From assembly GCF_000003605.2 (NCBI RefSeq), contig NW_003154743.1, positions 224,053 through 272,843 of the forward strand: 48,791 nt of DNA, in the 5' to 3' direction. Below the pieces are notes generated by a model, which was not told the DNA's origin, made no database searches, and saw nothing but the letters and a program-made list of their open reading frames with translations. The stretch comes from Saccoglossus kowalevskii (taxonomy: Eukaryota; Hemichordata; Enteropneusta; Harrimaniidae). Below, piece by piece: positions 6,301 through 40,893 of the stretch (positions within the stretch are counted from its first letter, which is position 1; each line of letters opens with the position of its first letter). The position numbers and the translations under genes are program-made.

Positions 6301-9300
6301 ATCCAATCAAGTGTATAGAACATCAATAAAATACAACAGTGGGGTAGAATGCACTGGTAATGAGTGGGAGGACAATCAGGTAAGACCAGTTAATCAGATT
6401 GCATTGTTCAGTTATAACAGTCTGGGCTTCTGTTATCCCTTCGGCAGTCGTCAATGTTGAAATATTTCATGTTGTCACATAAATTTGTATTATGCTAGAT
6501 CCTAATATAAAGAGTATGTTATGTTACTGTTTGATCAAGTCTAAACAATTGTACATCATTGCCTTGAATCTCTCAATCATATTTTCAGTGACAGATAGGT
6601 TTCTTACTAGCCATTCTTAGGCTGAAGGAAACCAGCATATTTCATTTATTATCTCTCAGTCTGATATATAATTGATTAATCAATCTATAGAAGCTAACTT
6701 GGAATTGAAAACATTTTTTAGGAATTTAATAACGAAACTGATCCTGGCTACTGTGAGTGCTACCATGGATACTGGGGACCTGCATGTGAGAATGAATGTA
6801 TTGGTGGGGCTAGTAATCCTTGCTTTGGTCGCGGGAAATGTGACTCAATTGATGGCAATTGCACATGTGATGTCAACTACCTACCTTTTAGTGACTGTTC
6901 AGACTGTGCAGATGGCTGGATTGGGGCAGATTGCTCTATAGGGATCCCTAGCTTACTGAATGCAGTTGGTGGTTCTTATCTTGGAAAAACGTTTGGGCTT
7001 GGTCATTTCACAACATTTGATGGAGCCAGTTTCATATTTTATGGCCGTGGAGAATACCTCCTATTTGCTAATGGTGAACTAGAGATACAGATACGAATGG
7101 TACAGTGCAATGCCGATGGGCAAGGAAGTTGTTTTAATGCTATAGCCTTCAAGATTGGTGCTAAGACTATGACAATCCATGGTGGGTATACTGATGATGA
7201 TTTAGGAGGTGTCGTGTGGATTGATGCTGTTAAGTCTTCCCTGCCACAGACAGAACACTTGGGATCTGGATACTACCTCTCAAGAGTTGCTATCGATCAT
7301 TACAAGTTGTCAAGTGACTACATTAACCTAGATGTGTTCATCCATGGAAGATACATTGCTTGTGATTTGTCAGTTGACACTTCAAAATGTAGTGGATCAC
7401 ATGGTCTGTTAAGCTCCTGTGACGGAAATCCTTGGAATGACTTCATCACTAGTGAGGGACTGGAGCTTACAGCAAACATAACTGGCACACTCAGCCAAGA
7501 AACTGTACATAATATCTATGGACCATCTTGGTTTGTCAACTCTAAAAGTAGTCTCTTTGTTTACAACTATGGATTATTTGACGAAGAGAGAAACAATACT
7601 GGCTCTGAAGCTGGATATGCATTATTTTTCAGAGATTCTCATTTGTATTCAGATGAGCTGTTCACTTTCTCTGATGGTGATGTTACATTTGAGTTCCAAT
7701 TCAAATTGAGCCCTGATCATATACAGTGTGGCACGTTGTTCTCATACACATTAGTTGGCACGTTTTCTCTCACTTGCTGTCGAGATTACCTGATTGTAAG
7801 TTATGATGATGAATTAAACCAAGAAGTGTTACTCACAGTAGTTGATGAAGTTTGGTACCAGGTGTCATTAGTGTGGCAAGCCAGCACAAAGCTCTTACAG
7901 ATTTACATCTATGATTTTGAAGTCCTGCAAAGTGATCGTGTAGACTTTGCCAACGTTGGAACTATTCTTCCACCAGGTGGAATTCTAACAATTGGAAAAT
8001 GGAACTCCCATCTTCATACCTTCTCTGATCCTCCATATCCTGGGTTTGTTGGATGGATGGACGAATTCATTATATGGAAACAAAGATTCGGCCTTACAGA
8101 TTTACAAAACCACTGGGGTTTGTTTATAGATTACAATACTAAAGGCCTTGCTAGCCTGTGGCGATTCAATGAAGGAAGTGGATTAGTGATTCAGGATTCA
8201 GCCTCCACAGCGAATCTGAAAATGCCTCCAGATCCATGGAATAACCCCGAATGGGTTTACTCATCAGCAGTTGTGAGGCGTTCTTTGTCATACTCGGTAT
8301 TAGCACAGTATATGGCATCTAGTTCGTCTGATGATTTTGTAATTGCTGCAGAGCATACATGCTATGACCTCATATATAGTAACATACTACAACGTGATTG
8401 CTCTACCCTTGGCATGTCTAATTATTTCTACTTGTCTTGCCTGAAGGATGTCATCAACAATAATAAATTAAATAGAGCAATGGATCTAATTCTGGGTTAT
8501 GCTGATTATTGCAAAGCCATTTTACAACTCTCATACTGGCCAGCACAGCCATTTTGCAACTATTTTGAAGGTAGGCATTTTCCCCTCTGGATTGGTGAAA
8601 ACTGTAACATTCCCTGCATATCAGGAACATCTTCTCCACATAATTCAGCACATTGTATGTGCTATCCAGGTTTCTGGGATGATACATGCAGTAGTGAATG
8701 TCCGGCTGGTGCTTTCTCACCTTGCCATGACCATGGAGTCTGCGATTCAGACATTGGTACTTGTGACTGTCCAGCAAAGTATACAGCTGATTGTTCTGTG
8801 TGTGCGCCAGATTGGTTCGGAGAGGAATGTGTGTCAGCGAAAGTTGATATTTCACAGAGCACACATTATGCTGTGTGTTCAGTTTTCAGCTACTCTCATT
8901 ACATCACGTCAGATGGCGCCACCTATGATATGATAGCTGCAGGCGAGTTCATCTTAGTTCAATCCATACCTCTGTCTGTGTTTGTTCGTCAAGTTCCATG
9001 CTCGGCAGGACGCACATGTATCAACCAGGTTTGGATTCATGTTAGGGAGGCTGATGTTAGTATCCATGGACCATATGATGACACTGGACGTGAAGTGATA
9101 TCATTGGATGAAGAGGAAGTATTGTTTGATCAGTATATTGTAGTTGGAGATGCTACGTTAGAACGAATTGGTCCTAAACAGTATACCTTCTCACAAGGAG
9201 ATATCAGTAACATCACTATCACCATCAGTGGTAGATTCCTCGACCTTCAAATTGTACTACATAAAGACCATTGTGAAGCATCTGACGGTACACTTTGTGG

Positions 9301-12300
9301 AAGCTGTGATGGCAACATTGATAATGACTTTCAGACGTCTTCATCTATTTACATACTACATAGCGACCTCACATTTGACATAATCAATAATGAATTTGCG
9401 GATTATTGCAAACTTTCTAACACAGCACAGACCAAATTTAGACTCAGTCATGGTGAATACAGAGAAGATAGAGATATCAGCGCTGGTGGTTACTGCTTAC
9501 ATTTTAGCAATAGTCATTGTGAAAGCCAGTCATTAGTACACACTTTTGATCTTGATGATGATGTCAGCATTGAATTACTAGTCCGTAGTGAAGATCCTAA
9601 TTTATATGGTGGAACCTTATTATCATATGTAAACATTCATCTCTTTGCAATCACAAATGATGGAACACTGAGACTGCATTATAATTCAAAAGATATTGAT
9701 ACTGGAATTGTACTATCAACCAAGCAGTGGGTACACATATCATTTGTTTACTTCAGATTGACTGGCACGTGTACACTTTATGTATTCAATGAATTTGGAG
9801 AGATTAGTGGTTATTCCTACAAACTAACAACCGGATTATTTAATCCCGGGGGCATTATAGCACTAGGAATATGGCCACCTGGTCACAAAGGGGGAAATAC
9901 TCCCAAAACAACATTTACTGGTGAGATTGATGAACTACGAATCTGGAGGACTTCATTTGACTATAACACTGTCAGACAAAACTATAGAATGAATGTACAG
10001 CCTGGGATGACAGGATTGAGTGGACTGTGGAAGTTCTCAGAAGGGCAAGGGAACAGCGTCAAAGATGAAGTATATAACCATTATATAACCATACCAAGGA
10101 ATAAAGGTGCTTGGTGGTATCTATCCAATTCACCTGTTGATAATGGACCGAGACATGATTATAGGTTCATTTCTTTACTCTTCAGTGAATTTACCAAAAG
10201 CCCAGCTGCACAATGTAGAACCGCAATTCTTGAAAGCAAAATACATGATGAATGTGCTACACTTGGAAATGCTCTAGCAGAGTATTATTACGACGCCTGT
10301 GTTATGGACATTGCATATTCTCAGTCAATGTTTTCATATACTTTGTCTGTACAAGCATATTCTACTTACTGTGAGGCTGTGCTACAACTACCATTCTCGC
10401 CAGAAGACCCGTGTAAAATGAATGCCACCGGCCCTGGTTGTGGAATCCATTGCGTATTTGGATCACCTGATCTTGAAAACAATGTTTGTGATTGTAATCA
10501 TGGATACTGGGGTGAGTCGTGCACTAAGATATGCCCTGGTGGGACGATCAATACATGTAATGGCCATGGAGTGTGTACTGATGAGACTGGGCATTGTGAA
10601 TGTGATGTAGGCTGGGATGTTGATTTCAACTGTACAGTCTGTGCTCCAGGATGGACAGGAGACTTGTGTACAACCAATACTGACACTGGAGGAACAGGAG
10701 AAATCTATGTGTGTAGCATGTTCGGGCAAGGACATTTCAACATCTTTGATAATGCTAGATTCGACTTCAAAGAAATTGGGGAATACAGCCTGATTAGATC
10801 AGAGTCAATGACATTACAAATCAGAATTCTTCCTTGTTATCTTGACTCATCGTGTATAACAGCAGTAGCACTCAGATATAATGGTGAAGATGTTGTTGTT
10901 AGAGCTGGCTATACCACAAACAGCAAATCTCTGCTTTGGTGGAATAACAATAACATAGACTATACTGAAAACACAGTACGAATGAACAGTTTTGTTTTCA
11001 ACCATGTGTCCACCAATGAATACTTACTACAAGATACCGCCGATGACATCCAGTTGCGTATTCGTGTTGCTGATCGATACTTTAGTGTTACATCTAAAGT
11101 GAAACAATCTTTGTGTTCTGACATAGATGGTATATGTGGATCATGTGATGGTAACGTGACCAATGACATCACAGATGTAGGACTTGCAATCAGCACTGGC
11201 ATTTGGACTGTGCATGTAAACAACAGTTTGTTTGGACCAATCTTTATCGACAGTGACTATGGTGAGACTCCATATACTACAGGTGCAGGTTATAGTTTGA
11301 TGATCAGTGACAGTCATTTGGTCTCAGATCTTTTAACTGACATATTCAGCGAGTCTGATGATGTGACTGTTGAATTCCTGGTTCAACTTGTACAAGATGG
11401 GGTAGTGTTTTCACATGCATCCGTCACATCGTTCTCTATAATAAGTGAAACATATATCAGAGTGCAAATAGGTGAAAGCATCATAAACACAACACTTTCA
11501 TTTGAGAAAGATGCATGGAACCATGTTGCAGTTGTATGGAAGAGAGCTGTCCGGCTATTATTTGTCTACATCATTAGTGCTGATGGAACAATGCATTATG
11601 ATACTATACCCACCAATAAGGTGATATTCTCAAATGGCGGCACACTTAGTTTTGGAACCAATCAGCCAGCATCCGGTGAAAGAATTCAAGTTCTGACCCA
11701 CGTTCCATTCATAGGAGAGATAGATGAAGTCCGAATATGGAGGAGAGCACTTTCCTCTATTGAAATAGAACACAGTTGGCATTTCAACATCATGCCAGAA
11801 ACACCTGACCTACTATGTTTATGGAAATTCAATGAAGGACAAGGTGATGTTATCTACAATTTAGTTGGCCACATCCATCTCAGATTCTTCAATCATGTTT
11901 GGAATTACAACATCCCAAAATGGAGGTTCGCATATTCATCAATAGAACTTGTATTAGTGAAATATACGTATACGTTTGTTGACAGCGCAATTGAGGTTTT
12001 AATTACAGATCACTGTACACAGATTGTGAGAGATTCTTCAATGTCAACCACATGTAGTGATCTTAGTGGTGGCTTGATTGATTTCCATTTCAAGGCATGC
12101 ATCCATGACATGGGTTGGTCTAATAACGCCTATGGCTCATTGGCAGTGAGCATTTCATTGGCTGATTACTGTTACTTAGTGTTACAGCCTCCCTCATGGC
12201 CAGCAAAAGACCTTTGCAATGCATTCTCTGGTGTAGTATTTCCAATATGGTTTGGTAATACCTGTGATGATGAGTGCTATTTTCCCTCAGGCAGTACAGT

Positions 12301-15300
12301 ACTGACCGGTATTTGTTCTTGCCATGTTGGATATTGGGATTCTCAGTGCAATTCAGTGTGTGTGGGTGGGGCTGGTAATCCATGCAACAACCATGGAGTG
12401 TGTCAACCAGATTCTGGTCAATGTGAATGTGAAGACAATTGGAAAGGAAACCTGCAGTGTACAGCATGTACTGATAACTGGAGAGGATCAGATTGTTCTT
12501 TAGCTGTCACACCTATAACACCTACAGACACTATTAAACATTGCTACACCTCCAAAGGTGGATTCTACACACTCTTTGATGGAGGGAGTATAACTTTCAA
12601 AAACAAAGGAGAATATCTATTTTATAAAGGAGCATCTGATGGAGTCCAGATTAATCTACTGCAAACAGCTTGCGACAACCAAGAAGTGTGTACAGTATCT
12701 GTTGGGATATCATTTGAGAGCACAGTGCTAATTCTAGATGCATCAGAAGAGGACGATTATGAACCCACTGTCTGGTTTGGTGATCAGAGAATATACCCTG
12801 GGAAAGAGACAACATTAACACCTGACTTCAGATTAATTAGAAGATCTTTACAGATTTATGAAGTTCTTGGACCAAGTGGTTTTCTTCTGAAGTTATTTCT
12901 TGGTGGGATTTATTTCAATGTTGACTTTGATATCAGAACATCGGGTTGCAGAGATGTATACGATGGAATCTGTGGTCCTTGTACAATAAAAAATGATGTC
13001 TGTCCACCTGATGATATCAAGTGTCGGATGAAATATACTGGATTGGTGGAGTTTTCTACTCATTATGACATCAATCTGAAGCTTGTACATGAACTGTTCT
13101 CAGATTGGAAGATCACAGTTGTTGATTCATTATTTCCATCAAATCTCAGAAATATCGGAGGAGGATACAGCCTTGGTTTCAGTGATAGTGGACTTGTGTC
13201 TTGGCCGTTCCATGATTATGTTCTGATAGATAAACACCTAACACTGCAATTGTACACCAAAATATATGTAGCAGAAGGCACATTAATATCATATACTCAC
13301 CAGTCAACTTTTTCAGTGTCTATCTTGGCTCAGAAATACTGTCTCCACTTTGGCAGTGTTGTTATTGACACTAGTATAATTGTGAAATTAAATATCTGGG
13401 TTCAAATTTCACTGGTCTATAATGTAGCGTCAGGTATGATGGAGTTCTCTGTTGTGGATGAAGATGGATGGTGTTTCCATGGATACTACTATATTGGATT
13501 ACATGTGTTTGTACCAGGGGGTGCATTTGGTCTGGGAATATGGCAACTACCGCCAGATGGTATGGGAAACCCTCCAATGGGGCAGTTCAGTGGTGAAATT
13601 GATAGAGTTGTTATTTGGGACAAACGCTTTCCATTGATTGATATTATAAGGTCTTCACATGTACATGTGACAAGATATGAGCGCAATATTATCTCACTAT
13701 GGAACTTGAATACTGGAGCTGGATTAATTGCTTATGATCCAGTGTCATTGCTCGATTTCAATTTTCCAACAGTCGTAAATCTACAACCAAACTGGCATTT
13801 GTCTACAGCTCCCATACAAACAGTTATTGATGTGCTTTTTAGATTGGTGGTTCGATTCACTGACCCAGTTCTTGAGTTGGAAGCCCATGATGTATGTACG
13901 AGATTGATGTTTAGTGGTACTATGCAAACTCATTGCGGAACCTTGACAGTAATATCAACATACTACTTCCATGTCTGCCTCACTAACATCGCTATGTCAG
14001 GGAATCTCAATCAAAGTATGGATGCAGTACTATCATTTTCATCACAGTGTGAACAACTACAAAATCTTCCGTCACCACCGGCACAAAGTCTCTGCAATGA
14101 CTTTCCAGGAAGACACTTTCCAATCTATGTAGGGGAGCACTGCCAACAGAGATGCTACTTTGGTGTTTATAAAGATACTAAGTGTGTATGCCATACTGGA
14201 TACTGGGGATCTGAATGTAACCATGTATGCCCAGGAGGAGGTCCTCATAATCCATGTAATGGGCATGGCAGCTGCGATGACATCACCGGTGATTGCATAT
14301 GTGACAAGCAATGGCAGGGAGGAACATATTGTAGTTTATGTACAGTTGGCTGGAGTGGTAGAGATTGCTCTATTCTGCTGCCAAGTTTACCTGATATCCA
14401 TCCGGTAGTATGTTCAGCTCGGTCTGGTGCTTTTATTAACTTTGATGGTATGGCATTCAACTTCAGAAGTGCAAATGTGATACAGCTACTCAAAGCAGAA
14501 AATATTGAGTTACAGGTAATGATATTGTTTACATTTCTTGTTGGTGTGGTTGTATTTTTTCTACAAAGGCGAGGGATTTTAAATATAAAAAAAATATTAA
14601 AAAAATATGATAACCAAGTAATTGGCACCAGTATCTGCATCAATATAATCATCAAAAAATATCTTTCATTTTATTTCATTTTTACACATGTTTTACCATA
14701 CTTCCCCGAGCATAAGCCCCTCCCCGAGTATAAGCCCACCCTCTGTTTTTAAACATTTAACATGTTGAGGGCATTCCTGAGTATAGGCCCAGGGTGTTTT
14801 TACCGGGCGTCAATGACATTTATTACAAATATGCATGTAAAAAATGTATTTCATTGAATAATAATCTGGATTGGTACGGTAGTTTGGTTCCTGCTTTTAC
14901 GAGAAAACTCGCATTAATTTCACAGTGCATGGCCGGCGAACGTATGGAACATGGTTCGGACCTTTTCTATTCTGTTATTTACTCAGGATGAACCCTGATG
15001 TTGCAATACTGTTTAAATACTTCCTCCACCCTCAGTTTACCTTTCGAACATTGAGAATCAACAGCTTTTTTGTCGAAATCAGATCGCATTTTAACATTGC
15101 GGTAATTCACTTCCGCATTGCGTTGAAAAAATAGCTTCGTCAATTATCGGAAAACTTCGTCTGTACGACACAGCATTTTGAAACGAAAGACGTGACCTGT
15201 TAGGTCAAAGGAATGATCAATCATGATGAAAAACACCATGGCGGAAATTGAATTGAAATTGAATTGAATTGAATTGTATTCCACAAAGAAAATATTAAGT

Positions 15301-18300
15301 TTTGCCTTCTACTGTTTATCCACAGACCCTACCATTTTAAAAAGTGTTGTGGAAATCAAAAAGATGTAATATTTCTCCGAGACCGGCGCTGTGAATGAAA
15401 AATGTAATGTGGATAATTTTTCGCGGTTGGGAAAATGGTTACAATTTTAAACCCCCCAAAAAATTATTAAGTATGGTAATAATATAGAACATTATTGTGT
15501 TTTTCAGATCAACCAGATTAGTTGTTACGATGATTCACTCTGCATTGATGCAATTGGTATCATGATGTTTGATGACATTGTGACTATTCATCATAAGGGT
15601 AACTACAAGACCAAGTCTTACCAAAACTATGAGTCAGTCAACTTCCATGGTGGTAGGCATATTAATAGAGAAGATCAGTGTCGTCTCCATGTAGCTATGT
15701 ATTCATCAAAGTATTACGAGTTCAATGTGCCAGAGATTGGTCTCACTGTGAACATAATGGCACTGAAGGAACATTTCTTGATTGACATGGAAGTTTCACC
15801 TGAGTTCTGTTGTAGCTCTGCTTTCTTTGGCATCTGTGGTCCCTGCTCCTACTGCAGTGGCGTGATTTCCCCCAATCAATGTGGGACTAACCGTAAACGT
15901 CGATCCACATACACGCTGAATAATAATGTGACTACACCGATTGTGATCAACGAAACTGACTCTGAAGAAATCATTGATGAAAAATGTCTCATGGCTATTG
16001 TGAGTCCGGGGATGTTCCGTGAAGATATGGAATCTGGTTTCAATCCAAATTTTGAAACTGGAGCTGGACATTGCATCTTCCTCAATCATACGTATGTTGG
16101 TGTTGATGAAGTACATCTGTTTAGTGGTGGTTATACCACAATAGAATTGCTCATAAGGACATGTGACTCAACAGTTTGTGGTGGGACAATTTTTTCCTAT
16201 AGCAGCGGCAGTACTTTCTTCATAACCCAAGAATTTGGATCATTAACTGTGCATTACAGTGACTTGAATTACACAACTGATATCATCTTTCAAGTAGATG
16301 TGTGGAACCAACTATCATTGGTTTGGGATCATGACAGTTATGTTTTGAATATGTATATATTTAATGATGTAGGAGTTGTAAAACGGCAGATGATAACTTT
16401 TGATGTTGATGTCCTGTTGCCCGGTGGATCGCTGTATATAGGTCAGTGGCAAGCAGCTGCAGATGGCAAAGGATTTCAACCGCTGGGTATATTCAAGGGT
16501 TACATCGATGAATTTAAAATTTGGAGCAGGTATGTTAAACAAAAACCATTATTAATTATATTTTACGATTTTACAGTCAATTTAGCTTTTTAGTGACCAA
16601 AATGCAATTTTTGGTGATTATTTTTTGTATGAAAGTATTAAAATGTGGTAAAAAATATACAGTAGGATGTCTAGGCTATACAGCAACTATATAGCAAGAA
16701 ATTTATTTTTGTTTGTTGCATTTTATTATATAATATGTATGTTGTGGGATGTGACAGGGGCTAAATTCTGCAATGTTTATTTTTATATGACAGAATTAAA
16801 ATGCAATAAAAAATAACTCATGAGTCAATACAGTAGGATGTCCAGGCTATACAGCCACTATATAGCGAGAAATGTTTTGTTTTTTTGTATGACTGACATG
16901 GCATTACTTTTTATTTATTTATTAGTACTATGTAGGTTTTTTACCACAGTATTGTATGGATTAAACAATCCAGTCAAACAGTGCAGTGCTTTGCCACTCA
17001 ATTTACATGCAATATTCAGTATTCAAAGAAACATTGCACATACTGCCTGTATATACCTACACCAATGATTTGATATTTATTTGTTTTACTCCTTGCAATT
17101 CACTTACAGATATTTTGACAACTTTGAAATCCAAGAGAATTGGAATGTTAATATACAACCTGGTGCTCCCTATCTAACAGCTATATGGAAATTCAATGAA
17201 GGAAATAGTAAGTGAAAACAGCCTAATGAATTGCTTCAGGGCAATGTCAGTGTTGGAAATCACTGCCTATCTGTGCGCCCAAGACAGGAAATTTTCAGTC
17301 AAGTTGGTAAAATAATTAACTCACATGCATGGTAATAAATACAAATATTTTCATGGTCTGCTTAATTTAAAATTTTTAACATGCAATTTGACTAAATATT
17401 ATTAATGGATGATGTTAACGCTGTTCTGCGTTTTGATGACTATTACAAAAGTTTTTAAACAGAATGCAATAATTTGAATTAGGAGATTTTAATAATAAAT
17501 CAAACATAGAAGTGATTATGAAAGAAACACTAGTTGTCATTATCTACTATTGCAAAATAAAATGAATTTGTGTATTTCTTTGGACAGAAGTATGTGACAA
17601 TAATTGCTAATGCAGGTAACTTTCTTGCAGGGTTAATGACATTTGAAAGTTACCTGCGCTGGTGACTGGCACACAGTTTTAAGTAATTTCACTGGGAATG
17701 TTAATTTGATTTACATCATGTTACAGTGACATCTGTCCAAACCAACCCCCAATGTTTAGGTTTTTTATATGAATCTGGCAATGGTGAAAAACAAAAATAT
17801 GTTTACCATCTGTACAAATTTACATATTTCCAAGAAAATATGTCTAAATTGTTACATTTATTTTTTTCCAGATGATATATTATATGACTCGGTGTCTAAT
17901 ATTCCGATGTATTTGCGACCATCACCAGCCAATCGTTCACCTGCCAAAAAAGTGTATTCTGATGCACCTGTACCACTTCCAACTAGAATCATTGTACAAG
18001 ACCCAGTAGATAATAAAGACCACTGGGGAGTGGACTACTGCCATAAACTATTTTTCACTGGACCAGTCTATGAGTAAGTGTTTTAACACAATCCATACAC
18101 AAGACACAGTGACACAGAGTTAGAAATCTACTATCCCAGAAAGTTTCTATGGTGATGTTGTTTACAAAATATAAAGGACAAATCAAATAAGTGCTGATAC
18201 AGCTTTATACAGAGCTGCACATTCTATTTTTTTTCTGTGCTAGTTGTATTATAATGGTTATCATACATGGAACAGGTGGTCCCCTTGATTCTGAAGTAAA

Positions 18301-21300
18301 ATATGAGCCCATATTCAAGGAACATGTCAATTACGGAAAGTATTTTTACTATACAGTCTAAACTATTTACATGTATTTGTTATCACTATGCATGTTAAAA
18401 TCTTGAGCATGGTGTACAATAAATATTGTACATAGTGTACATAATTACAAAAAGAAAATGCACATTTTATTTGTCAAATTAATGGTCATTAAACAATAAT
18501 ATTGAGCAAAAAAAGTGGGCAATATAACATGATAGAAATATGTAAACTTTAAATTTTACTTATAATATTCAATACATATCAGCGAAACTACATATTAGCG
18601 AAAAATATAAACATCAAGCTAAATATAAAACCTAAAATAATAGGTTATATTACAAAAAGTGTTTTTTATTCTTGCATAATGTAAATATTGTTGGTTTATT
18701 TTTTCTAGGGACTGTAAATCATTGGGTGACAGTGTAATACATCAGTACAATGACAAATGTGTGAGTGGCGTTATTGCAACCAACAGTACTGAAGCTGCCT
18801 TAGAAGTTGTGTTGGATTTCTCTGGATATTGTCAGATTATTCTCCAGTTGCCAAGTTCACCTGCGAAAACACTGTGTAATTCCTTTGAAGATGTGGATTT
18901 CCCAATATGGATTGGAGAGGAATGTGATATACAATGTTTGTTTGGTACACAAGACACCATGCAATCAGGACTATGCATATGTGAACCAGGGTTTTGGGGA
19001 GATTCGTGTGATAATGTATGTCCTGGTGGAGTGGACAATCCATGTAATAATGTTGGTGCATGTGATTCAGCAACTGGAATATGTGCTTGTCCTGCGAACT
19101 GGCAAGGAAATGAAAACTGTACTGAATGTTCACCTGGTTGGTTAGGAAATGACTGTTCAATGATAAATATATACTACTCTGTAATTGATGTGAGGATGCG
19201 TTACAGGATCTCCACTATTCTTAGTTCGTCACAGCTAACAACCATGAGTGGCATCACGTTCCTACACTATTCTATTGGTGAATACTACCTACTGCGAGTG
19301 TTAAACTACAGACTAATAGTACAAGCTAAGTTTATTAGATGTTATGGAACCTATTCATGCATTAGACATTTGGGCATTCGATTTGGAGACTATTCCGTGG
19401 GATTCACCCGCATCACATTCAGTGGACCATCCACCATTGGAAGCTATCCCAGGACATGTGTAAATGGCTTGGAAATGGTCATTGATAACCGTTTGGAATT
19501 TGGATTGTCGGGATATGTTATTGAAAGACTCTCATATGATGAATTACTTTTTGCTGGACCAAGTAATTTCAAAATAATTATCCGAATTGTCGGACATTAT
19601 TTGGCTATTGACACACGTATGCCAAGTGAAATATGTGACTCATCTGTTGGAGTTCTTGTAGGAGAATGTTGTTCAAATGTTACAGTCGCTACAGGGCTTT
19701 CTTCAATGCAAGCAGATAATGTACCATTAGATCTGTGTCTCCATGACTACCAGGAGCAGCATCCTTCACCTTTAGATACAAATCCCTATGAGTTTCCAGA
19801 AAACAATAACAGTTCCTGTGGCATAGACAATCCAACATCACAAGAAGATGTTTCCTTGTACATGAACCACTGGGCGGTGGATGTATGTGATTCAGTAATT
19901 GACTATCCAGTCCAGGAAGCATTCCTACAAACCACTGCAGGATACTGCTTGAAGTTTGAACACACATCAATTAGCCCTCAGTCGTCATTATTTCACCTGA
20001 CTCTCACACTTGATATGACAATTGAAATGTATGTGAAATGCAGTGACCCTTTTAGACGATGTGGAGCTGTATTTTCCTACACCAATGTGAAATCATTCAC
20101 TCTTGTCATCAACGATATCATCTATGTTGTCTATGATAATGTAGAATACCGCACAAGTTTGATTATTGAGAATAATAAATGGAACAAAATAGTCCTGGTG
20201 TATGATAGAAAAGGAAAGCTGAACATTTACAGTTTTACTGCCATGGGTGTGATCAAGCGAATGGAAATAGCTATTAACATTGATACATTTGGAGTGATGG
20301 GTTCTTTTGCTATTGGTCAATGGCAAGTTCAGCCTGATGGAACATCCCAAGTTCGAATACCCAACTTCCATGGTGATATTGATGAATTTAGAGTGTGGAA
20401 TAGAACCTTTGACAGTGTAGGAGTTGAGGAGATGTGGTATGTGTACCTACCTGCAACAACACCAAACTTGTACCATTTCTGGCCATTTGATGTAGGTGAA
20501 GGTGATTTAGTAAACAATGTGGTCAGTGACGATGATCTGTTATTACCAGCAAAGCCTTGGAACAGGCCAACATGGCTGCCTTCTGATCTCAATCTACCTG
20601 ATTTGGACACACCTGACACTATAGATGTTGAATTTAATGATACAGATATGGAAGCTATAGCCACCTTGCACTGCAACAACCTTATTAAATCGCCGCCTTT
20701 GTCTGACAGATGTGCTGGTCTTGGTGAATCTGTCAGTGCCTCATACTTCATGGCGTGTCTGAGAGTTGTAGCATCAACAGGGAACATCACATTAACATAT
20801 GAAGTGGCCTTTACATTTTCTGATGTTTGCCAAGTGACTCTAAATCTGACGTATTGGCCGGCTAAACCCATCTGCAATGAGGCTGCTAATGTACGTAGAG
20901 GAACAGATTGCAAAAATGAATGCATCTTTGGATACAAAGATGATTTGGATGATTGTATTTGTTACTCTGGATTTTATGACAGCAACTGTTCATCTGTGTG
21001 CCCAGGAAGTTCTGTCCAACCTTGTAACAATCACGGAGAGTGTATGGGGAACTATTGTACATGTGAAATCAACTGGAGAACAGGCCAGGACTGTGAAAAC
21101 TGTGGGTTGGATTGGGTGGGAAAGGAGTGTACTCTAGCTCTATACAGGCTGCCTTATTTTGTATACATCCAACGTACATACTTTGTGGCAACCATATCAA
21201 CTTATACAAGGTACACAAACTTTGATGGAATTAGTTTCTACTTGGGAGCTGTTGGTGAATTTTACATTATTAGACTTGCAAGTGTGCATGTCCATATCCG

Positions 21301-24300
21301 TCAAGTAACTTGCTACTATACATCAACATGTCTGAATACCATTGCTCTGACAATATCTGGAACAACTCGTCTTGTTATCCATGCCCCTGTAACACTGCAT
21401 GACAGACCTGGAATTTGGATTGATGAGAAGAGAATGTTACTGTCTTATATCAGATTAGATATCAAGAACACTGGCTGGTTCATACTCACTTTAACTGATT
21501 ATGAATGGGAAATACACAGTTCAGGAGCTGAGAGTATTGTAATACATCTACGTTTCATTGGTAAATACATGCAAATTAGTATTGAAGCACCAAAAACTAC
21601 ATGTATGACTTCCATCGGCCTACTTGGAAATTGTAATAATGACCTGAATGATGACATATTCCCAATGAATGATATCATGGCAATTAATTCAACATCCCAG
21701 AATGACATCAACATTGATTTAGCTGATTGGTGGAGAGTTCCTGCAAATGAGAGTCCATATCAAGGAATCACTGATCTCTATTATGAGATCCATGGTGATC
21801 ATTATGGGGGTGTTTATGCACTGTACTTTGATAGTACAAGTGGTATGACAAAACCTTTAAGGTATACTTTCGATGATAATCTTCTCAACACAGATATCAC
21901 GATTGAATTCCTGGTGAAACCTGTAGCATTAGGTGGTACGATAATTTCATTTGGGTTGGACTATACATTTGCAGTTATCAATGACGTCACCATCAAGATA
22001 CACCACAGTGGTATTGTATATGACACAAAGATACCTATTACCTTAGGAGAATGGAACCAAATCATAATAATAGTATATGCCAACAAGCAGTCGCTGGAGT
22101 TTTCTCACAAAGTTGACGTCAATATCTCTCGGTGCAGTTTTGAAATTGAAACAAGTGAACTACTCCAACCAGGAGGTGTATTAGCAATTGGTCATTGGCA
22201 GACTGCTCCTTTGACAGGACTTAAATATATAGATGCTAATTTTATTGGTGAAATAGATGAGTTGAGAATCTGGAATCGCTCTATTACACCTGCTTTCCTT
22301 GACCAAATAAGTGGGTTGAATGTTCATACTGGCCACTACCACCAAGACTTGGTAGGAATGTACGAGTTTAATTCTGGAGAAGGTACTGTTGTACCTGATA
22401 CACTGGATGACAATGATATTTTCTTACCACCTGGGTTGTGGAAACGACCAACCTGGCTGCCCTCAACAGCACATATAGCGCTTGAAATTAGTGAACCCTT
22501 TAGAAATGACAATGTTAACACATCTTTGCTGGAGTCTGCTGAGACAATATGCAGCTATATAAATGGCAGTGGTGGTATTGCTACACACTGTGCTAATATT
22601 TCAAAATCTATGGTTGAGTTTTACTTCATGACTTGTTTGAGCATTGTGTCAACAACTAATCAGTTGAATACTACATTTGATGTCCTGTTAACATTCAGTG
22701 ATTTCTGTCAACTGAACAATCGCTTAGAATATTCGCCACTGTATACCATATGTCATACATTGCTGCAGTTTAGTCCGCCAATTTGGTTTATACAATTTTG
22801 CTCGACATGTACACATGGATTTCCAGCTAACAATTATAAATGTGATTGCACACATGGTTTCTGGGGTGAAGACTGTTCAGACGTGTGCCCAGGTGGTCAG
22901 TCAACACCATGTTATGAACATGGACAGTGTCAGGCATCTGGGGAATGTTCATGCTGGCTGAACTGGAATGGTGACCATGAATGTGGGAGTTGCAGTTCAG
23001 GTTGGAGTGGCAGAGAATGTAGTGTTATAATCGGCCAAATAGCATCAAGTATTCATCGATATGCTAGTGTTGCTCTCCATGGTAAAGTCACAACAATTGG
23101 CAGTGTTTCCTTCTATATTTCAACACCAGGGTGGTACAGACTGATTAGTAATGTTCATCACAGTCTCAGCATTGATGTAAGATACTCCTTGCGTGTGAAC
23201 AATAGAAACTATGCCAGCTCGTTTGATGTCCTGATCATTAACTATGGTGGACAGCAGCTGGTTATGAGGGCAGCATTGTATTCAAAAACAGATTTAGAAC
23301 CATTCTTGTGGAGGAATAAAAAACTAATTATTCTGGATCACGAAACTCAAATAAGTCCAGATTTTCTTATAACTAGAATTGGGATTCATCGTTTCCGTAT
23401 CACAATAATAACTCTTGATTTAACACTGTATGTGACTGCTAATTATCAGTATCTGGAACTCGTCTTCAGTATCCCGGAAAGTGTATGTGATGATCCAAAT
23501 TACCTTGGTTTGACAATAAATTGTGATGTATTAGACCAGTTGCAAAATTGTAGTGCACAACATATGAATGAAACCGATGACTGTTCTATCACTCAAAGTA
23601 TGATTGACTCCTACGCTCAACTATATAGAAGAGATGATGTCGTCTACACCGAGTTTGAAAGCTATTCCAACTTGGTACCATTAAAAGGAGCAGGATATAC
23701 ACTTTGTTTTACAGATAGCTTAGTGATCAGCAAGTCACCATTACTGCTTCCATTGGACAGATTCACATTAGAACTTTTAGTCAGAATTCAAGCTACTGAT
23801 GGGACTATTCTTTCCTTCTCATCCATCAAAGTGTTTGCACTATTTGTTCTTCGAAGTAAACTTCATGTCCAAGATGCAGGTGAAGTATTTTCTACTGATC
23901 TGACCATTGAAGTTGGGTACTGGAACCAAATCAGCATACAATGGCGAAAACAAATTGGATTACTAGAACTCTACATATTTGACAGATTTGGCAATGGTCG
24001 AGTTGAAGCAATCAGACTGAATCAATTGACTTTCTCGTATGAAGGGAACCTAACAATTGGCCAGTGGTATTCTCATAATGACGCCACAGAACCATTAGTG
24101 CCTATTGTTGCGTTCAATGGTGATATTGATGAAGTCAGAATATGGGATAGAGAACCAAATCCAAGTATCATCACTGACTCCTGGATGGCAAATATTGGTG
24201 ACAATTGGCCGGATTTAGTTCACTTGTGGAAAATGAATGAAGGGGATGGAGAGTCGATAATGGATATCATCAGTGGAAACGATTTGGTAATTCCTGAATG

Positions 24301-27300
24301 GAATGGACCAACATGGCGTGTGTCCGATGCGAATACAACAACATCAATTGATTCACCATTGGAATTGCCACTGTTTGTAGATTTACAGCTGAAGGTGTTG
24401 GCAGAACAGAAATGCAACGAATTGATACTGACTGGTCAGCTGTTTACCACATGTTTGCCCATTGGTATTGCTGTGTTAGAGTCCTACTACATTCAGTGCT
24501 TGTATGACATTTTACACTACAGACATATTGATGCAGCCATGTTGCAAGTGGTGGCATTATCCGATTTCTGCTACCATCAACTCGGTCTTGACACTGATCT
24601 AACAAATTGGCCCTCTAAGCAACTGTGTAATGAGTTTCCAAGTCGACATGACTTTCCATATTGGATTGGTGCAGGTTGTAATGTCAAATGTGTGTTCGGG
24701 GAAAGAGACCATAACAACCATGAATCATGTGTTTGTAGGCATGCATATTGGGGGGCTGCTTGTGACAGTCCATGTCCAGGGGGAATCATTAATCCATGTT
24801 ATGGACATGGTAACTGCAATGTCACCAATGGTCTTTGTAAATGTCCTTCCCATTGGCTGAATAATAACGATGAACCAGAATATTCATGCTCAGAATGTGA
24901 CCCTGGATGGGCAGGAACAGACTGTTTGGTGAGCTATATGACAACAACTGAATCATATGGTATTGCTATAATTTTTGGGGACATTCACTTCACCACCATG
25001 GATGGACCTAGCTTTCATATGCATACCCCTGGGATTTACCAGTTGTTACAAACTCCAGCAACAACAATTCAAGCTTTGTTACTTCAGTGTAGTGGAAAAG
25101 TTGCCTGCAATAAGATAGTTGAAGTAGCAGTTATGAATGACAATGTTGGTATAGCAGTTGTTGTGGACATTAAATTTACCAATGTGATCACATTGTACAA
25201 AATCAATGTTGGAGAATGGGTGGAAATTCAAGACAGTTTTTCTAACAGAGTATCGAGTGGCACATTCTCGGTGACAATTAGAGACAATGTTGTCAACATT
25301 ACTACATCTGATGATGTAAACATTGTGGTTGTTATGTACTCAAATGTATTGAACTGTGTGATCGAGTCTGAGAATATCGTTAATATTCAAAGTAAACATA
25401 CAATGATAGGATCATGGGACAACAATTGGCTCAATGACTTGAACTTAGGATTACAGAGGAATGGTACACTATCAACAGTAAATGATACCTACTTCCTGGA
25501 AAATGTATTGTCTCAGTCATACATGGATGTTACGTTTTCCAACTTGTCCCATGTGGATTTATCAGAACGCCAGCTACAAAGTATATGGGCATATGAGGGA
25601 GATGTAATCACAGGTTATATACTTCGCTTTCTACACAGCCGTGTTACTGTAAGTGACCTCACAATTCTGGGATTAGATGCATTTACTTTAGAGTTCTGGG
25701 TTCGACTACATGGTGATAACTATCAGTCCATCCAAACAATGATCAGCTTTGACACGCCGGGTAACGTCTTTGTAGTAAAATTATCTGGTGGTGACTTAAC
25801 AATTGTCATGGATGGTGCAGTAATTACAACTGACTTAACTCTAATTGTGGAGCAATGGTATCATGTTGTTGTTACTTGGAGGAGCTATGATGGTCGATTA
25901 GCCATTTACCTATACTCGAGAATGAGCAAGCTTACGCTAGTGTATGTTGTCAACAATATATTCCTAGCTAAACTCTTTAACATACAAGGGGAGTTGCATG
26001 TAGGGCAGTTAGTATATCAAGGGCGTGTTGAATCGGCTGAAGACTGTAATGGGGATATTGATATGATACGATTCTGGGGATACTGTAAAAACATTAATGA
26101 TCTTGATAATGAAAGAGAGAAATACAGTGAATACTACAAGCCTGGGTTGCTGATCCGCATGCCATTGGAAGAGGGTTATGGACTCAATACATCTGTTGAA
26201 GTATTTCCTATTGATGGATATTCTGTAGGTGATAAAATAAACCGTTCAAGTATAACACTTGGGAACTTAGAACCAAAAGATTCGCCACCAGAATGGATAT
26301 CCACAGACATACCAATCACAGCTGATGGGAGCAACTTTCCAATATTCTCATCCCCTGAACTTAAAGAAGAAGCTGAAACATTTTGTCACGAGATGTATTT
26401 TGAAGGTACTCTAAATGAGTACTGTAGTGAGATCATCAGTTCTTATATATTTTATTATGAATCATGTCTTCTTGATATTGCTGCCAGTAACCATGTGGCG
26501 CAAGGAAATGTTTCTGTACATATGTATGCATTACTTTGTCAGAGATTATTGCAGCTACCAGAGGAGAGCTTCTGTGGGTTTTATGAATTCTGTCAAGAGA
26601 TAATTGAAGATGAAGAATCATTCCCCGTCTGGATTATAATATTGATTGTTTGTTTGATTATTGTACTCCTGGTATCATGCTGCATGTGCTGTGTGATATG
26701 TGTATTGTGTAAGAAAAAGAAAAAGAGGCGTACTGGTGAATATGATTGTAGCCACGTTGCCTTAATGGAACCTCAGTCCACTCAAGAAATACGATTTGCA
26801 ATGGGCTCATGTGAAGATGTACAGCTCACAAATTTTCCACAAGCAGAATCAGCTAGAAACGATTTTAATTTAATTGAAGCATGGACGGTAGGAAGAGCTG
26901 ATAATGGTGTTTCAAATGCAAATACAGACCAAGATCGTAGTGATGAGAAGCCAGATATACCCGAGAATCCAAACATACCTAATGCCTTCTTTAATAGTGT
27001 TTACAATGAAACTTCCTCCGGTTTCCAGGGTGTCAGTGAAGGAATGAATGATTTTATGAATGAAGAAATACCAATGCAAACATTACGACCTGCCCCTGAT
27101 GTGGATGACTTTTCTGGAGATTCATTTGAAGAGGATAACCTTGACATGCATCTACCTATTGCTTACACAAGTAGTAGTAGTAGTAGTGGCACTGATGAAT
27201 CAACATACACTGAATCTACAAGCCGACCTAGTAGTGGAAGACTGCATAGTGGTCGTGTAACACCATTAACAAGTGTACAGAATGAAGAAAGTAGTACACC

Positions 27301-27667
27301 AGAGCCTATGAAACCTAAGCGTACCCGTAAAGGAGATGCTTCCAGTAAAATGAGGAATAAACTCTTGAACAAAAACCAGGATGCAATTGTTGGTAAACGT
27401 AGAAGAAAGCGCAGAAGACCTAAGAGTGAAGCTCACAGTAGACCTAGAAGAAAGCTGGATAGCAATAGACCACAGAGTGTGGCCACCAGTAGATCAACAG
27501 AGGCTGCTCATCTTCCTCTTAATGCAGCTACTACTGGAGCTACTAGTAGACCTCAGAGTCCCCCACAAGGTCGTACAGCACATGTTGCCTGGTCAGATAC
27601 TCCCAGAAATAAAACCTTTGGGGTGAAATTGCCACCATTGATGCGCAATAATGAGAGTGAAACTTAG
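1..27667 (+). CDS. Giant nine-module VWD/LamG/C8/EGF single-pass membrane protein (5' partial, 11 exons)
   Basis: I joined eleven exons: 1-345, 516-677, 1067-1450, 2376-2672, 3544-3856, 6253-6379, 6722-14515, 15508-16529, 17110-17207, 17872-18073 and 18709-27667. All introns are GT-AG, the phases agree, and no stop occurs before TAG at 27665. The window part encodes 6,566 residues; the signal peptide and start lie upstream. Order seen: EGF-like repeats with a recurring CPGxPxCxxRGxC signature, a small FGY-type beta module, nine tandem modules (VWD-like, LamG jelly-roll, C8-like Cys region, EGF pair), one transmembrane helix (26627-26710) and a 318-residue basic tail. From family knowledge, VWD, LamG and EGF domains are extracellular and mediate protein or glycan contacts. 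A cell-surface adhesion or recognition receptor is my inference. I recognise no named orthologue; VWDE-like is the nearest description, without the full architecture. Confidence 0.85.
516..677 (+). CDS. Exon 2: one EGF-like repeat
   Basis: The acceptor is CACTCAG before 516 and the donor G|GTAATA follows 677. It is 162 bases, phase 1 at both ends, so it can be added or lost without changing frame. It encodes one EGF-like unit (SKHGFCNVNDQECYCYSGWK) and starts the next CPGTPDCSDRG signature, which continues in exon 3. Confidence 0.8.
678..1066 (+). other. Intron 2
   Basis: This is a 389-base intron with a GTAATA donor and a TTTTTTAG acceptor. I see no gene in it. It is alignable to the inverted copy near 47764-48111, where the last roughly 55 bases, including the acceptor, are deleted. 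Confidence 0.75.
1067..1450 (+). CDS. Exon 3: EGF-like repeats
   Basis: The exon is 384 bases, phase 1 to phase 1, between a TTTTTTAG acceptor and a G|GTAATA donor. It encodes EGF-like units with the motifs MCICDDGYMG, NHGSCINNSCVCETGY and CPGDPDCSERGTC, ending at the start of another CPGTPQCNDRG signature that exon 4 completes. The inverted pseudogene copy of this exon has lost its acceptor and carries a frameshift. Confidence 0.85.
1451..2375 (+). other. Intron 3, with about 285 bp absent from the inverted copy
   Basis: The 925-base intron aligns to the inverted copy on both sides (about 1451-1670 and about 1960-2220), but roughly 1672-1955 has no counterpart there. That stretch begins AGTATGCA at 1669 and has the reverse complement TGCATACT at 1879. 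This looks like a transposon insertion after the duplication or a deletion in the copy. I found no coding sequence. Confidence 0.55.
2376..2672 (+). CDS. Exon 4: EGF/laminin-EGF-like repeats
   Basis: The acceptor is AATACAG and the donor A|GTACGT; 297 bases, phase 1 at both ends. Cys-rich coding sequence includes CNCQHGFDGNACELC and WTGASCNECIEGWG, giving about three EGF-like or laminin-EGF-like units. Continuity with exon 3 is good because the split CPGTPQCNDRG|SC signature is completed across the junction. No copy of this exon is seen in the inverted pseudogene. Confidence 0.8.
2673..3543 (+). other. Intron 4, carrying a MITE-like element
   Basis: The 871-base intron runs from GTACGT to a polypyrimidine tract and TAG. 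Most of its middle (about 2866-3250) is a foldback repeat that recurs in inverted orientation at about 37895-38310. I see no gene in it. Confidence 0.7.
2866..3250 (+). mobile_element. Foldback MITE-like element, copy 1
   Basis: One end folds on itself: TCAAAGTATGCAC at about 2891 is repeated in reverse as GTGCATACTTTGA near 2963, followed by TCTCGTAATAA. The other end carries ACAGATGTATAATAAT. The same layout occurs reversed at about 37895-38310, including the shared stretch around a GGCAGCCATG-like motif. There is no coding capacity, so it is a non-autonomous DNA-element candidate. Its superfamily is unknown and its ends are approximate. Confidence 0.6.
3544..3856 (+). CDS. Exon 5: start of small FGY/FxPG-type beta module
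   Basis: The acceptor is TTTTAG and the donor GTATGT; phase 1 in, phase 2 out. After a short Cys-containing segment (GHCDIRCEANQG) the product reads CVSVSDDGDGYVAWLGYDNN, then YIPIGADNRFEI, then a GQPTKFKPGQM motif and a VFFI strand. I know this pattern (xFGYxNxN, IPxGxxNxF, GQPTxFxPG, VFxV) from many bacterial and some animal secreted proteins. Its function is not established, to my knowledge. Confidence 0.75.
3885..4830 (+). repeat. Degenerate flanks of the minisatellite
   Basis: On both sides of the homogeneous core the same pattern continues in weathered form (TTTTGGGCACTTATAAACTA, GGCCATTATTTTG and similar). Here the unit carries a CACTTA segment in place of GTGATTA, so the core is a locally homogenised derivative of an older array. 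Confidence 0.7.
4065..4530 (+). repeat. 30-bp minisatellite core array
   Basis: About 15 tandem copies of a 30-base unit built on TTTTGGGTGATTAAAAACTA followed by TTGACCATTG. Some units are 26 bases long, lacking four A/T bases. Copies are very similar in this core and much more diverged on each side. Confidence 0.9.
4835..5640 (+). repeat. Dispersed repeat block with internal duplications inside the minisatellite
   Basis: A GTCCGTG-rich start leads into units containing GAAAATGCATCAAAATCG, GGATCTCAGTTATGCATGGA and TTTGGTACATACATTAAA. The unit near 4994-5120 recurs near 5321-5440 and, truncated, near 5455-5540. It contains a run of G at about 5130-5139. Minisatellite sequence resumes after it near 5690, so it looks inserted. 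Family unknown. Confidence 0.65.
6253..6379 (+). CDS. Exon 6: end of the FGY/FxPG-type module
   Basis: The acceptor is ATACTTAG and the donor CAG|GTAAGA; phase 2 in, phase 0 out, 127 bases. It completes the exon 5 module (IPDEETEYTWNIAYTLSNQ, then a Cys in VECTGNEW). A broken copy of the second half lies inverted at about 46815-46860, where CAG has become TAG. Confidence 0.75.
6380..6721 (+). other. Intron 6
   Basis: A 342-base intron with a GTAAGA donor and an ATTTTTTAG acceptor. Only its first few tens of bases have a counterpart in the inverted copy. Nothing else is recognised. Confidence 0.7.
6722..6950 (+). other. EGF pair preceding module 1
   Basis: The motifs CECYHGYWGPAC, CFGRGKCDSIDGNCTCD and CADGWIGADC match the EGF pair that ends every later module (GYWGxxC; NPCxxHGxC; CxxGWxGxxC). 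The repeated unit could therefore equally be drawn as EGF pair first. Confidence 0.75.
6722..14515 (+). CDS. Exon 7 (7,794 bp): EGF, four complete VWD-LamG-C8-EGF modules and half of VWD5
   Basis: An uninterrupted 2,598-codon exon, phase 0 at both ends, between a TTTTTTAG acceptor and a CAG|GTAATG donor. The first Met of the open frame (7097) is internal: upstream in-frame codons from 6722 encode an EGF pair and the first strands of VWD1. The exon contains modules 1-4 and ends in the middle of VWD5 (IELQ|INQ), directly after the strand corresponding to LEIQIRMVQC in module 1. Such a long coding exon is unusual and suggests intron loss or expansion from an intronless copy. Confidence 0.9.
6985..8850 (+). 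other. Module 1: VWD-LamG-C8-like-EGF
   Basis: VWD-like from FGLGHFTTFDGASF to SCDGNPWNDF (to about 7446). LamG jelly-roll about 7606-8260, with GWMDEFIIW and SLWRFNEGSG. C8-like about 8350-8610, with HTCYDLIYS, DCSTL, LSCLKDV and YADYC. EGF pair to about 8845 with GFWDDTC and DHGVCDSDIGTCDC. The paired cysteines of the VWD strand (QC...SC) are present. Confidence 0.8.
8866..10680 (+). other. Module 2: VWD-LamG-C8-like-EGF
   Basis: VWD-like starts VCSVFSYSHYITSDGA and ends LCGSCDGNIDNDF near 9331, the most canonical VWD signature here along with module 3. LamG about 9486-10090 with GEIDELRIW and GLWKFSEGQG. C8-like about 10210-10430 (QCRTAI, ECATLG, DACVMD, YSTYC). EGF pair ends GWTGDLC. Confidence 0.8.
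10708..12510 (+). other. Module 3: VWD-LamG-C8-like-EGF
   Basis: VWD-like begins VCSMFGQGHFNIFDNARF and ends ICGSCDGNVTNDI near 11170. LamG about 11280-11880 with GEIDEVRIW and CLWKFNEGQG. C8-like about 12010-12265 with HCTQIV, TTCSDL, KACIHDM and LADYC. EGF pair with GYWDSQC, NHGVCQPDSGQCEC and NWRGSDC. Confidence 0.8.
12535..14380 (+). other. Module 4: VWD-LamG-C8-like-EGF
   Basis: VWD-like begins HCYTSKGGFYTLFDGGS, but its C-terminal signature is altered to ICGPCTIKND, without the DGN. LamG about 13158-13770 with GEIDRVVIW; the WKFNEG motif is weakened to SLWNLNTGAG. C8-like about 13890-14145 with DVCTRL, THCGTL and HVCLTNI. EGF pair with GYWGSEC and GHGSCDDITGDCIC. Confidence 0.8.
14516..15507 (+). 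other. Intron 7
   Basis: A 992-base intron splitting VWD5. It contains A-rich runs near 14585-14610, a duplicated CCCGAGTATAAGCCC-like segment near 14702-14740, and a short GAATT array (about 15247-15276). The frame stays open for 237 bases past the donor, but that peptide is low-complexity and unlike the modules, so it is intron. Confidence 0.75.
15247..15276 (+). repeat. (GAATT)n microsatellite
   Basis: About six tandem GAATT pentamers, one with an extra A, within intron 7. Confidence 0.85.
15508..16529 (+). CDS. Exon 8: second half of VWD5 and most of LamG5
   Basis: The acceptor is TTTTTCAG and the donor AG|GTATGT; phase 0 in, phase 2 out. It opens with INQISCYDDSLC, aligning to LEIQIRMVQC-type strands of the other modules. 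It reaches ICGPCSYCSG (degenerate VWD signature), a basic stretch GTNRKRRSTY that resembles a furin-type cleavage motif (RKRR), then LamG5 from GAGHCIFLNHTYV to GYIDEFKIW at the donor. Confidence 0.85.
16530..17109 (+). other. Intron 8, with a 171-bp direct repeat
   Basis: A 580-base intron. ACAGTAGGATGTCTAGGCTA at 16659 recurs with a few changes at 16830, followed on both sides by ACTATATAGC and an AGAAAT segment, so a unit of about 171 bp is duplicated in tandem. No gene is seen. Confidence 0.7.
17110..17207 (+). CDS. Exon 9: LamG5 end
   Basis: A 98-base exon between CACTTACAG and A|GTAAGT. It encodes the linker and the LamG end motif AIWKFNEGN that follows the GxIDEFKIW strand of exon 8. 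It is too short to call alone, but homology to the other eight modules makes it clear. Confidence 0.85.
17208..17871 (+). other. Intron 9, with a perfect 13-bp inverted repeat
   Basis: A 664-base intron. GCAGGTAACTTTC at 17612-17624 is matched exactly by GAAAGTTACCTGC at 17645-17657, a hairpin with a 20-base loop. Otherwise AT-rich with nothing recognised; acceptor TTTTTTTCCAG. Confidence 0.7.
17872..18073 (+). CDS. Exon 10: LamG5 end and start of C8-like region 5
   Basis: A 202-base exon, phase 1 in and phase 2 out, donor GA|GTAAGT. It encodes the segment between the WKFNEG motif and the Cys region. It starts NDILYDSVSN, includes a proline-rich stretch, and ends YCHKLFFTGPVYE, matching HCTQIVRDSSM-type sequence of module 3. 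Confidence 0.8.
18074..18708 (+). other. Intron 10
   Basis: A 635-base AT-rich intron with a GTAAGT donor and a TTTTTTCTAG acceptor. I see no gene or clear repeat. Confidence 0.75.
18709..27667 (+). CDS. Exon 11 (8,959 bp): rest of module 5, modules 6-9, transmembrane helix, cytoplasmic tail, stop
   Basis: A single terminal coding exon. The codon split across intron 10 gives GAG, followed by DCKSLGDS, so translation continues from exon 10 rather than starting inside. It carries the C8/EGF part of module 5, modules 6-8 complete, module 9 without EGF, a helix at 26627-26710 and a 318-codon tail ending NNESET with TAG. VWD and LamG motifs are progressively less canonical from module 6 onward. 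Confidence 0.9.
19170..21140 (+). other. Module 6: VWD-LamG-C8-like-EGF
   Basis: The VWD-like part keeps SIGEYYLLRV and one Cys pair (IRCYGTYSC), but its final signature is only GECCSNV. LamG about 19937-20560 with GDIDEFRVW and HFWPFDVGEG. C8-like about 20668-20910 with LHCNNLI, DRCAGLG, MACLRVV and FSDVC. EGF pair with GFYDSNC, NHGECMGNYCTC and DWVGKEC. Confidence 0.75.
21160..23030 (+). other. Module 7: VWD-LamG-C8-like-EGF
   Basis: The VWD-like part keeps YTNFDGISFY, a Cys pair (TCYYTSTC) and GNCNNDLNDDIF. LamG about 21806-22440 with GEIDELRIW and GMYEFNSGEG. C8-like about 22535-22800 with ICSYING, THCANI, MTCLSIV and FSDFC. EGF pair with GFWGEDC, EHGQCQASGECSC and GWSGREC. Confidence 0.75.
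23045..24935 (+). other. Module 8: VWD-LamG-C8-like-EGF
   Basis: The VWD-like part has lost most cysteines (IDVRYSLRVN in place of the QxxxC strand) and ends TINCDVLDQ. LamG about 23686-24300 with GDIDEVRIW and HLWKMNEGDG. C8-like about 24405-24680 with KCNELIL, TTCLPIG, IQCLYDI and LSDFC. EGF pair with AYWGAAC, GHGNCNVTNGLCKC and GWAGTDC. Confidence 0.75.
24955..26600 (+). other. Module 9: membrane-proximal, lacks the EGF pair
   Basis: The VWD-like part keeps DIHFTTMDGPSF and one Cys pair (LQCSGKVAC), but its signature is GSWDNNWLNDL with no cysteine. LamG about 25605-26190 with GDIDMIRFW; the WKFNEG motif is reduced to IRMPLEEGYG. C8-like about 26380-26600 with FCHEMYF, EYCSEI, ESCLLDI and YALLC, ending FCGFYEFCQEI just before the membrane. 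Confidence 0.75.
26627..26710 (+). other. Transmembrane helix with Cys-rich inner end
   Basis: Twenty-eight residues without charge (VWIIILIVCLIIVLLVS, then a CC/CC/C cluster) are followed at once by five lysines and two arginines. The basic stop-transfer side puts the C-terminus in the cytoplasm (type I). The cysteines at the inner face are possible palmitoylation sites. Confidence 0.85.
26711..27664 (+). other. 318-residue cytoplasmic tail with basic NLS-like patch
   Basis: The tail is low in hydrophobic residues. An acidic part (DDFSGDSFEEDNLDMHLP) leads to a Ser run encoded by AGT triplets (about 27170-27189), a Ser/Thr/Pro-rich part, and then a dense basic patch (KPKRTRKG, then KRRRKRRRPK, then RPRRK; about 27310-27460). 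It looks disordered. The basic patch would fit a nuclear-localisation or lipid-binding role. No known domain was recognised. Confidence 0.7.
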
Positions 27668-29727: not shown

Positions 29728-29795
29728 TATTAAAACCAGGTTTGACCTGATTCTATTATTATTTCTATTAAAACCAGGTTAGACCTGATTTCTAA
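29728..29795. repeat. Two tandem copies of a CAGGT-nnn-ACCTG palindrome
   Basis: TATTAAAACCAGGTTTGACC at 29728 and the same segment with one change near 29766 are about 37 bases apart. Both arms CAGGT and ACCTG are kept while the spacer differs (TTG, then TAG). A third partial copy (ACCAGGTAAGA) follows near 29829. Confidence 0.6.
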
Positions 29796-31899: not shown

Positions 31900-31907
31900 T
31901 ATAAATA
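31900..31907 (+). promoter_or_regulatory. Candidate TATA box (TATAAATA) for the zinc-finger gene
   Basis: TATAAATA lies downstream of a locally GC-richer stretch (about 31800-31880) and 51 bases before a good splice donor, as expected if transcription starts near 31930. The zinc-finger coding exon begins at an acceptor about 1 kb downstream. Inferred from sequence only. Confidence 0.35.
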
Positions 31908-31929
31908 TTATTGTTTTAGTGCTATGCAC

Positions 31930-31958
31930 ATGCTACACTGCGGTGCAACAGTTGTCAG
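31930..31958 (+). other. Candidate non-coding first exon of the zinc-finger gene
   Basis: The sequence ends GTTGTCAG|GTAAGC, a near-consensus donor. Upstream ATGs at 31924 and 31930 would not be in frame with the zinc-finger reading frame after splicing to 32978, so this would be 5'UTR. The exact start is unknown. Confidence 0.3.
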
Positions 31959-40883: not shown

Positions 40884-40893
40884 CCTCCATACA

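Follow-up and report, generated by a model that had tools for sequence, protein, structure and literature searches.

Zonadhesin is a membrane mosaic in which tandem VWD domains, EGF domains and a C-terminal transmembrane segment are combined with MAM, mucin and TIL parts and a short cytoplasmic tail, the zebrafish protein having nine VWDs (PMC1325057, in part). In FCGBP and the gel-forming mucins, tandem VWDs stand in D assemblies of the order VWD-C8-TIL-E. LamG is not known from zonadhesin, MUC4 carries EGF domains and a VWD that is not known to be repeated, and teneurins are type II proteins with the ectodomain after the membrane anchor. MUC4 has been described as a transmembrane mucin with a VWD, and GDPH as the autocleavage motif in FCGBP, MUC4 and others (PMC10880436, in part). 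The locus compared here with these systems was found in a stretch of 48,791 nucleotides (nt) from Saccoglossus kowalevskii (RefSeq assembly GCF_000003605.2, contig NW_003154743.1, forward strand; C4411:224053-272843 in the 572-Mb assembly searched), referred to as the window. It holds a gene predicted to encode a giant type I membrane protein with nine modules of VWD, LamG, a Cys region and EGF, which reads as a new arrangement of known domains. Literature searches on domains, architecture and hemichordates gave no described VWD-LamG-Cys-EGF repeat in titles or abstract openings among the matches listed, with subscription journals mostly outside their reach, and no family compared below shares the architecture; this agrees with an earlier reading of the same DNA made without database searches (the sequence-only reading), which knew of no named receptor with this repeat. 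An automatic gene prediction for this gene may well exist among sequence records.

Open reading frames (ORFs) were present at 6722-14752 (2,676 residues), 15451-16593 and 18680-27667 (2,995 residues); were stops as frequent as in 27701-35000, 2,676 codons would contain about 160 of them. Joining of five exons (6722-14515, 15508-16529, 17110-17207, 17872-18073 and 18709-27667) gave 6,024 residues with zero internal stops, and the four introns between them (992, 580, 664 and 635 nt) are all GT-AG with consistent phases. The three middle exons sum to 1,322 nt (2 mod 3), so that skipping the whole trio would disrupt the frame between the two giant exons. These 6,024 residues are the verified part of the protein, to which the sequence-only reading gave 11 exons and at least 6,566 residues; exons further 5' were examined for splice-site candidates. 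Hydropathy analysis gave a single hydrophobic segment, near the C-terminus and 3' of the modules. The ectodomain stretch comprises 5,675 residues (237 Cys, 46 sequons) and the cytoplasmic tail 319 residues (64 Ser/Thr, 46 Lys/Arg), with a bipartite stretch resembling a nuclear localization signal in a motif scan. Module 5 joined over its introns scores like the other modules (E 2.1e-134), in support of the gene model. One gene for one type I membrane protein is supported by the sequence, in line with the sequence-only reading, and the gene is real, well supported and unusual. Its features, with the basis of each in brackets, are as follows.

6722..6934, + strand: EGF block preceding module 1 (translation, boundary)
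6935..8830, + strand: module 1 (boundaries, leave-one-out profile)
8831..10669, + strand: module 2 (boundaries, leave-one-out profile)
10670..12496, + strand: module 3 (boundaries, leave-one-out profile, predicted structure)
12497..14368, + strand: module 4 (boundaries, leave-one-out profile)
14369..19156, + strand: module 5, in exons 14369-14515, 15508-16529, 17110-17207, 17872-18073 and 18709-19156 (four introns, one RKRR)
19157..21130, + strand: module 6 (boundaries, leave-one-out profile)
21131..23020, + strand: module 7 (boundaries, leave-one-out profile)
23021..24925, + strand: module 8 (boundaries, leave-one-out profile)
24926..26599, + strand: module 9, EGF-free (boundaries, leave-one-out profile)
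26618..26707, + strand: transmembrane segment (hydropathy)
26708..27664, + strand: cytoplasmic tail, 319 residues (hydropathy, motif scan)
27665..27667, + strand: stop codon (ORF list)

The modules measure 632, 613, 609, 624, 639, 658, 630, 635 and 558 residues from 1 to 9. The nine-fold tandem repeat proposed earlier was borne out by leave-one-out profiles, each built from the other eight modules, which recovered all nine over most of their length (E 1.7e-142 to 1.2e-117 for modules 1-8, 2e-47 for module 9) whereas 18 control sequences, reversed or shuffled, gave no match at E<=10. Chance or wrong joining as the origin of the nine modules was rejected on the open frame, the phases and this recovery. 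Identity between module pairs is 18-30%, and the module tree is star-like, with five of six inner branches open and only modules 6 and 7 joined (90/90, flagged as possibly false); on these grounds the array is old, and no order of duplication can be recovered from it. Introns within modules occur in module 5 only and lie inside domains rather than at domain borders, and the array therefore does not look as if exons coding for whole domains had been shuffled. The four introns may be a gain in module 5, or else the flanking blocks lost theirs, in the latter case most simply by two cDNA-mediated losses.

Domain content was assigned with Pfam in the eight modules that could be scanned singly, the intron-split module 5 being left out. 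VWD and Laminin_G_3 were each matched in six of the eight at E<=1; VWD (PF00094) reached E 2.5e-36 in predicted protein P0001, and among PDB profiles FCGBP matched the VWD part best. The LamG part is pentraxin-like by Pfam and PDB profiles and by the predicted structure of module 3, resembling neuronal pentraxins, PAPP-A and ADGRG4 in profile and fold. EGF repeats, of teneurin type by Pfam, occur in eight of nine modules and in the extra block before module 1, and are mostly weak in the modules and strong in the 5' exons. In module 9 the EGF block is missing and the Cys count is 11, vs 23-32 in the others. The Cys region is predicted to be all-helical (residues 439-518 of module 3), and four Cys are spaced similarly to those of C8. 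No Pfam C8 match was obtained at E<=1 in the singly scanned modules; two chains were matched in PDB profiles at E<=10, neither of them a C8 protein; and two stretches of this genome, called C8 by eye and by one tblastn, aligned to it in hhalign with P 0.012 and a probability of 3.7%. The C8 label is unproven for this region. The order VWD-LamG-C8-EGF given in the sequence-only reading thus stands for VWD, LamG, Cys region and EGF in eight of nine modules, while EGF is missing from module 9 and C8 is unsupported by sequence search.

Zonadhesin is the nearest system in its working. Tandem VWDs, EGF and a C-terminal transmembrane segment are all found here, with the differences that EGF is interspersed and that module 9 separates the last EGF from the membrane. 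Membership nevertheless fails, because no TIL model was found at E<=1 in the eight modules scanned singly or in the three exon proteins. MAM was not found in the scanned pieces of the window proteins and 5' exons, the N-terminus lying in the assembly gap. The D assemblies of VWF, the gel-forming mucins and FCGBP share the VWD, but here VWD and the helical Cys region have LamG between them, EGF blocks occupy the position of TIL-E after C8, the protein is membrane-anchored, and GDPH, which is common although not universal in such assemblies, is not present in the 6,024 residues. The same absence of GDPH separates the protein from MUC4, as do NIDO and AMOP, neither of which was found in the pieces scanned of the window and of the upstream piece L009. 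The likeness to pentraxin and LamG jelly rolls is one of profile and fold, for one part of a nine-fold mosaic. Teneurins share the EGF type; here the sole transmembrane segment of the 6,024 residues follows the modules, with the N-terminus in the gap.

We put at about even strength the proposal that the protein is a rod-like molecule, anchored in the membrane and serving in adhesion or mucus binding, that works like zonadhesin or like a membrane-tied FCGBP and a member of neither family. The disulfide-rich modules would stand on an epithelial surface as a stiff, multivalent stalk, in which the jelly rolls may bind glycan or protein ligands in multiple copies, the VWD parts may contact proteins within the mucus or coat, and EGF blocks may act as joints, so that the whole could serve as a cell-anchored adhesive or mucus tether. 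The adhesive role is one that we infer from the domains alone. The earlier guess at function is plausible as regards adhesion or surface coat; its allorecognition part found no support of its own, with one locus detected in a genome search of limited reach. Were the proposal right, an animal lineage would have set a jelly roll of pentraxin-like kind after a VWD and repeated this block nine times, giving a very large membrane-anchored adhesion molecule coded mostly in intronless giant exons. The locus would then be a test case for re-engineering of the VWD assembly, with LamG inserted and EGF replacing TIL, and for the formation of giant exons, module 5 alone keeping or gaining four introns.

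Several points weigh against this proposal. The N-terminus and signal peptide are located beyond the 5' assembly gap. CGxC is at the usual VWD position in four of nine modules (2-5), several VWDs are degenerate, and two of the eight singly scanned modules had no Pfam VWD match at E<=1. Structure prediction of one module (module 3), which the sequence-only reading had suggested, yielded the jelly-roll fold, but with a mean pLDDT (predicted local distance difference test) of 68.3 and the VWD part weaker; in the structure search with this model at least one fifth of rows cover residues 205-426 only, so the absence of VWD or C8 there is uninformative. Shared fold alone demonstrates no function. 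Finally, the genome search with module 3 missed module 9 of the same gene. Its 10 matches, including the query, were all at this C4411 locus and covered modules 1, 2, 4, 6, 7, 8 and parts of 5; the locus is provisionally single, and copies as diverged as module 9 would escape such a search.

Among other explanations, a secreted product was judged unlikely but worth weighing: module 5 would be cleaved at RKRR, releasing an N-terminal fragment from a membrane stub, and the protein would be the precursor of a mucus or matrix protein instead of a receptor. Of three R-x-[KR]-R matches, two are in the tail, and this furin-like RKRR (residue 2727 after joining) is the sole one of the ectodomain stretch; in module 5 it falls after VWD and before LamG. 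The motif is short, however, with about 0.5 chance matches expected per 5,675 residues (estimate), and halves cut there could stay linked by disulfides.

A gamete-recognition molecule working like zonadhesin is improbable. In its favour are the membrane protein's tandem VWDs, EGF and C-terminal membrane anchor, and the nine VWDs that zebrafish zonadhesin has as well (PMC1325057, in part), but TIL and MAM were not found in the pieces scanned, the cytoplasmic part of zonadhesin is short vs 319 residues here, and its VWD blocks are spread across many exons, those of the zebrafish gene being symmetric 17-exon blocks (PMC1325057, in part) vs the giant exons of this locus.

Slightly more doubtful still is a signalling receptor that would release its basic tail into the nucleus. 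The bipartite stretch in the tail would fit such a role, but basic stretches are common in tails, and seven other tail motifs tried gave one SH3-type match only.

That two separate genes, with one giant exon each, were wrongly joined is very improbable, since module 5 begins in the first giant exon, crosses the three small exons and finishes in the second, with fitting phases and the joined score given above. An allorecognition receptor, for which the large polyvalent ectodomain is the only argument, is equally far-fetched, given the single locus returned by the module 3 search within its limited reach.

No relative was found in viral contigs searched with predicted protein P0002. A VWD-bearing frame on contig C1622 (L027:1949-6367) was considered as a relative and set aside, as by eye it reads as a different protein, with Asn/Thr-rich repeats, VWD and an apparently ordinary C8.

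On its left the window directly adjoins a run of N, and on its right it extends to the scaffold end. Upstream of the five joined exons, the following were placed.

~3-345, 516-677 and 1067-1450, + strand: 5' EGF (teneurin-like) exons (EGF_Teneurin/EGF_2 in 3-344 and 1012-1449; splice-site candidates; 516-677 called EGF by eye, outside the Pfam scan)
2348..2680 (ORF bounds), + strand: laminin-type EGF exon (EGF_laminin 9.4e-07)
3544..3856, donor uncertain, + strand: putative exon (ORF, acceptor 3543)
6253..6379, + strand: putative exon (acceptor 6252, donor 6380)

Pfam and NCBIfam gave no match at E<=0.1 for 3474-3854 or 6188-6379, and a minisatellite of ~30-nt units occupies 3881-4742. The first EGF exon enters from the assembly gap already mid-array. 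At 46784-48791 on the - strand the 5' EGF exons recur as an inverted, decayed copy (3-1549 vs 48789-47335, 83% identity), with one splice donor lost and the third exon internally deleted. As the sequenced block ends at the same repeat position on both sides, the assembly probably broke at this inverted repeat.

Beyond the gap, a Gly-rich ORF (L009:1934-6106, scaffold 205,986-210,158) forms a giant exon with a Gly-rich repeat, the unit being ~390 residues by eye, and a second giant Gly-rich exon lies at L032:5063-8821 (scaffold 143,115-146,873). The L009 ORF had zero Pfam or NCBIfam matches and one PDB match that is not meaningful (E 0.26). When it was used alone as the query against the genome, 11 matches including itself were returned, all on C4411, on the same strand, between 120,036 and 212,458; reading of L029, L030 and L032 added further exons of this Gly-rich kind, including one with 1,253 residues, and did not reach an end of the Gly-rich gene. 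Perhaps these exons belong to the same gene. Tentatively, and at somewhat less than even strength, one gene of ~130 kb would run through the gap and encode a receptor of ~10,000+ residues (estimate) with Gly-rich repeats, EGFs, the nine modules, the membrane anchor and the nuclear-type tail, a lineage-restricted surface filament with no described counterpart.

Elsewhere in the window, Rfam (gathering cut-offs) and ARAGORN returned nothing. A C2H2 zinc-finger open frame lies at 32978-33670 (+), and exons at 35012-40913 (-) read like those of a DHRS7-kind short-chain dehydrogenase.

Saccoglossus mitochondria have been described with AAA as Lys and a derived gene order, AAA being missing in Balanoglossus and read as Asn in echinoderms (PMC3121625, in part). 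On the mitochondrial contig of this assembly (C4830, L031), ND1 and COX2 share one strand and COX1 is on the other; AGG was not found in these three genes. The code read there fits the deuterostome guess of the sequence-only reading and makes an acorn worm of Saccoglossus type the likeliest source, with the pterobranch Rhabdopleura less likely. Mitochondria of Rhabdopleura use AGG as Lys, plus the same three assignments that are read on C4830: AAA as Lys and ATA as Ile, at sites where these residues are usual, and AGA (two codons, in ND1) as Ser, in at least one case where Ser is usual.
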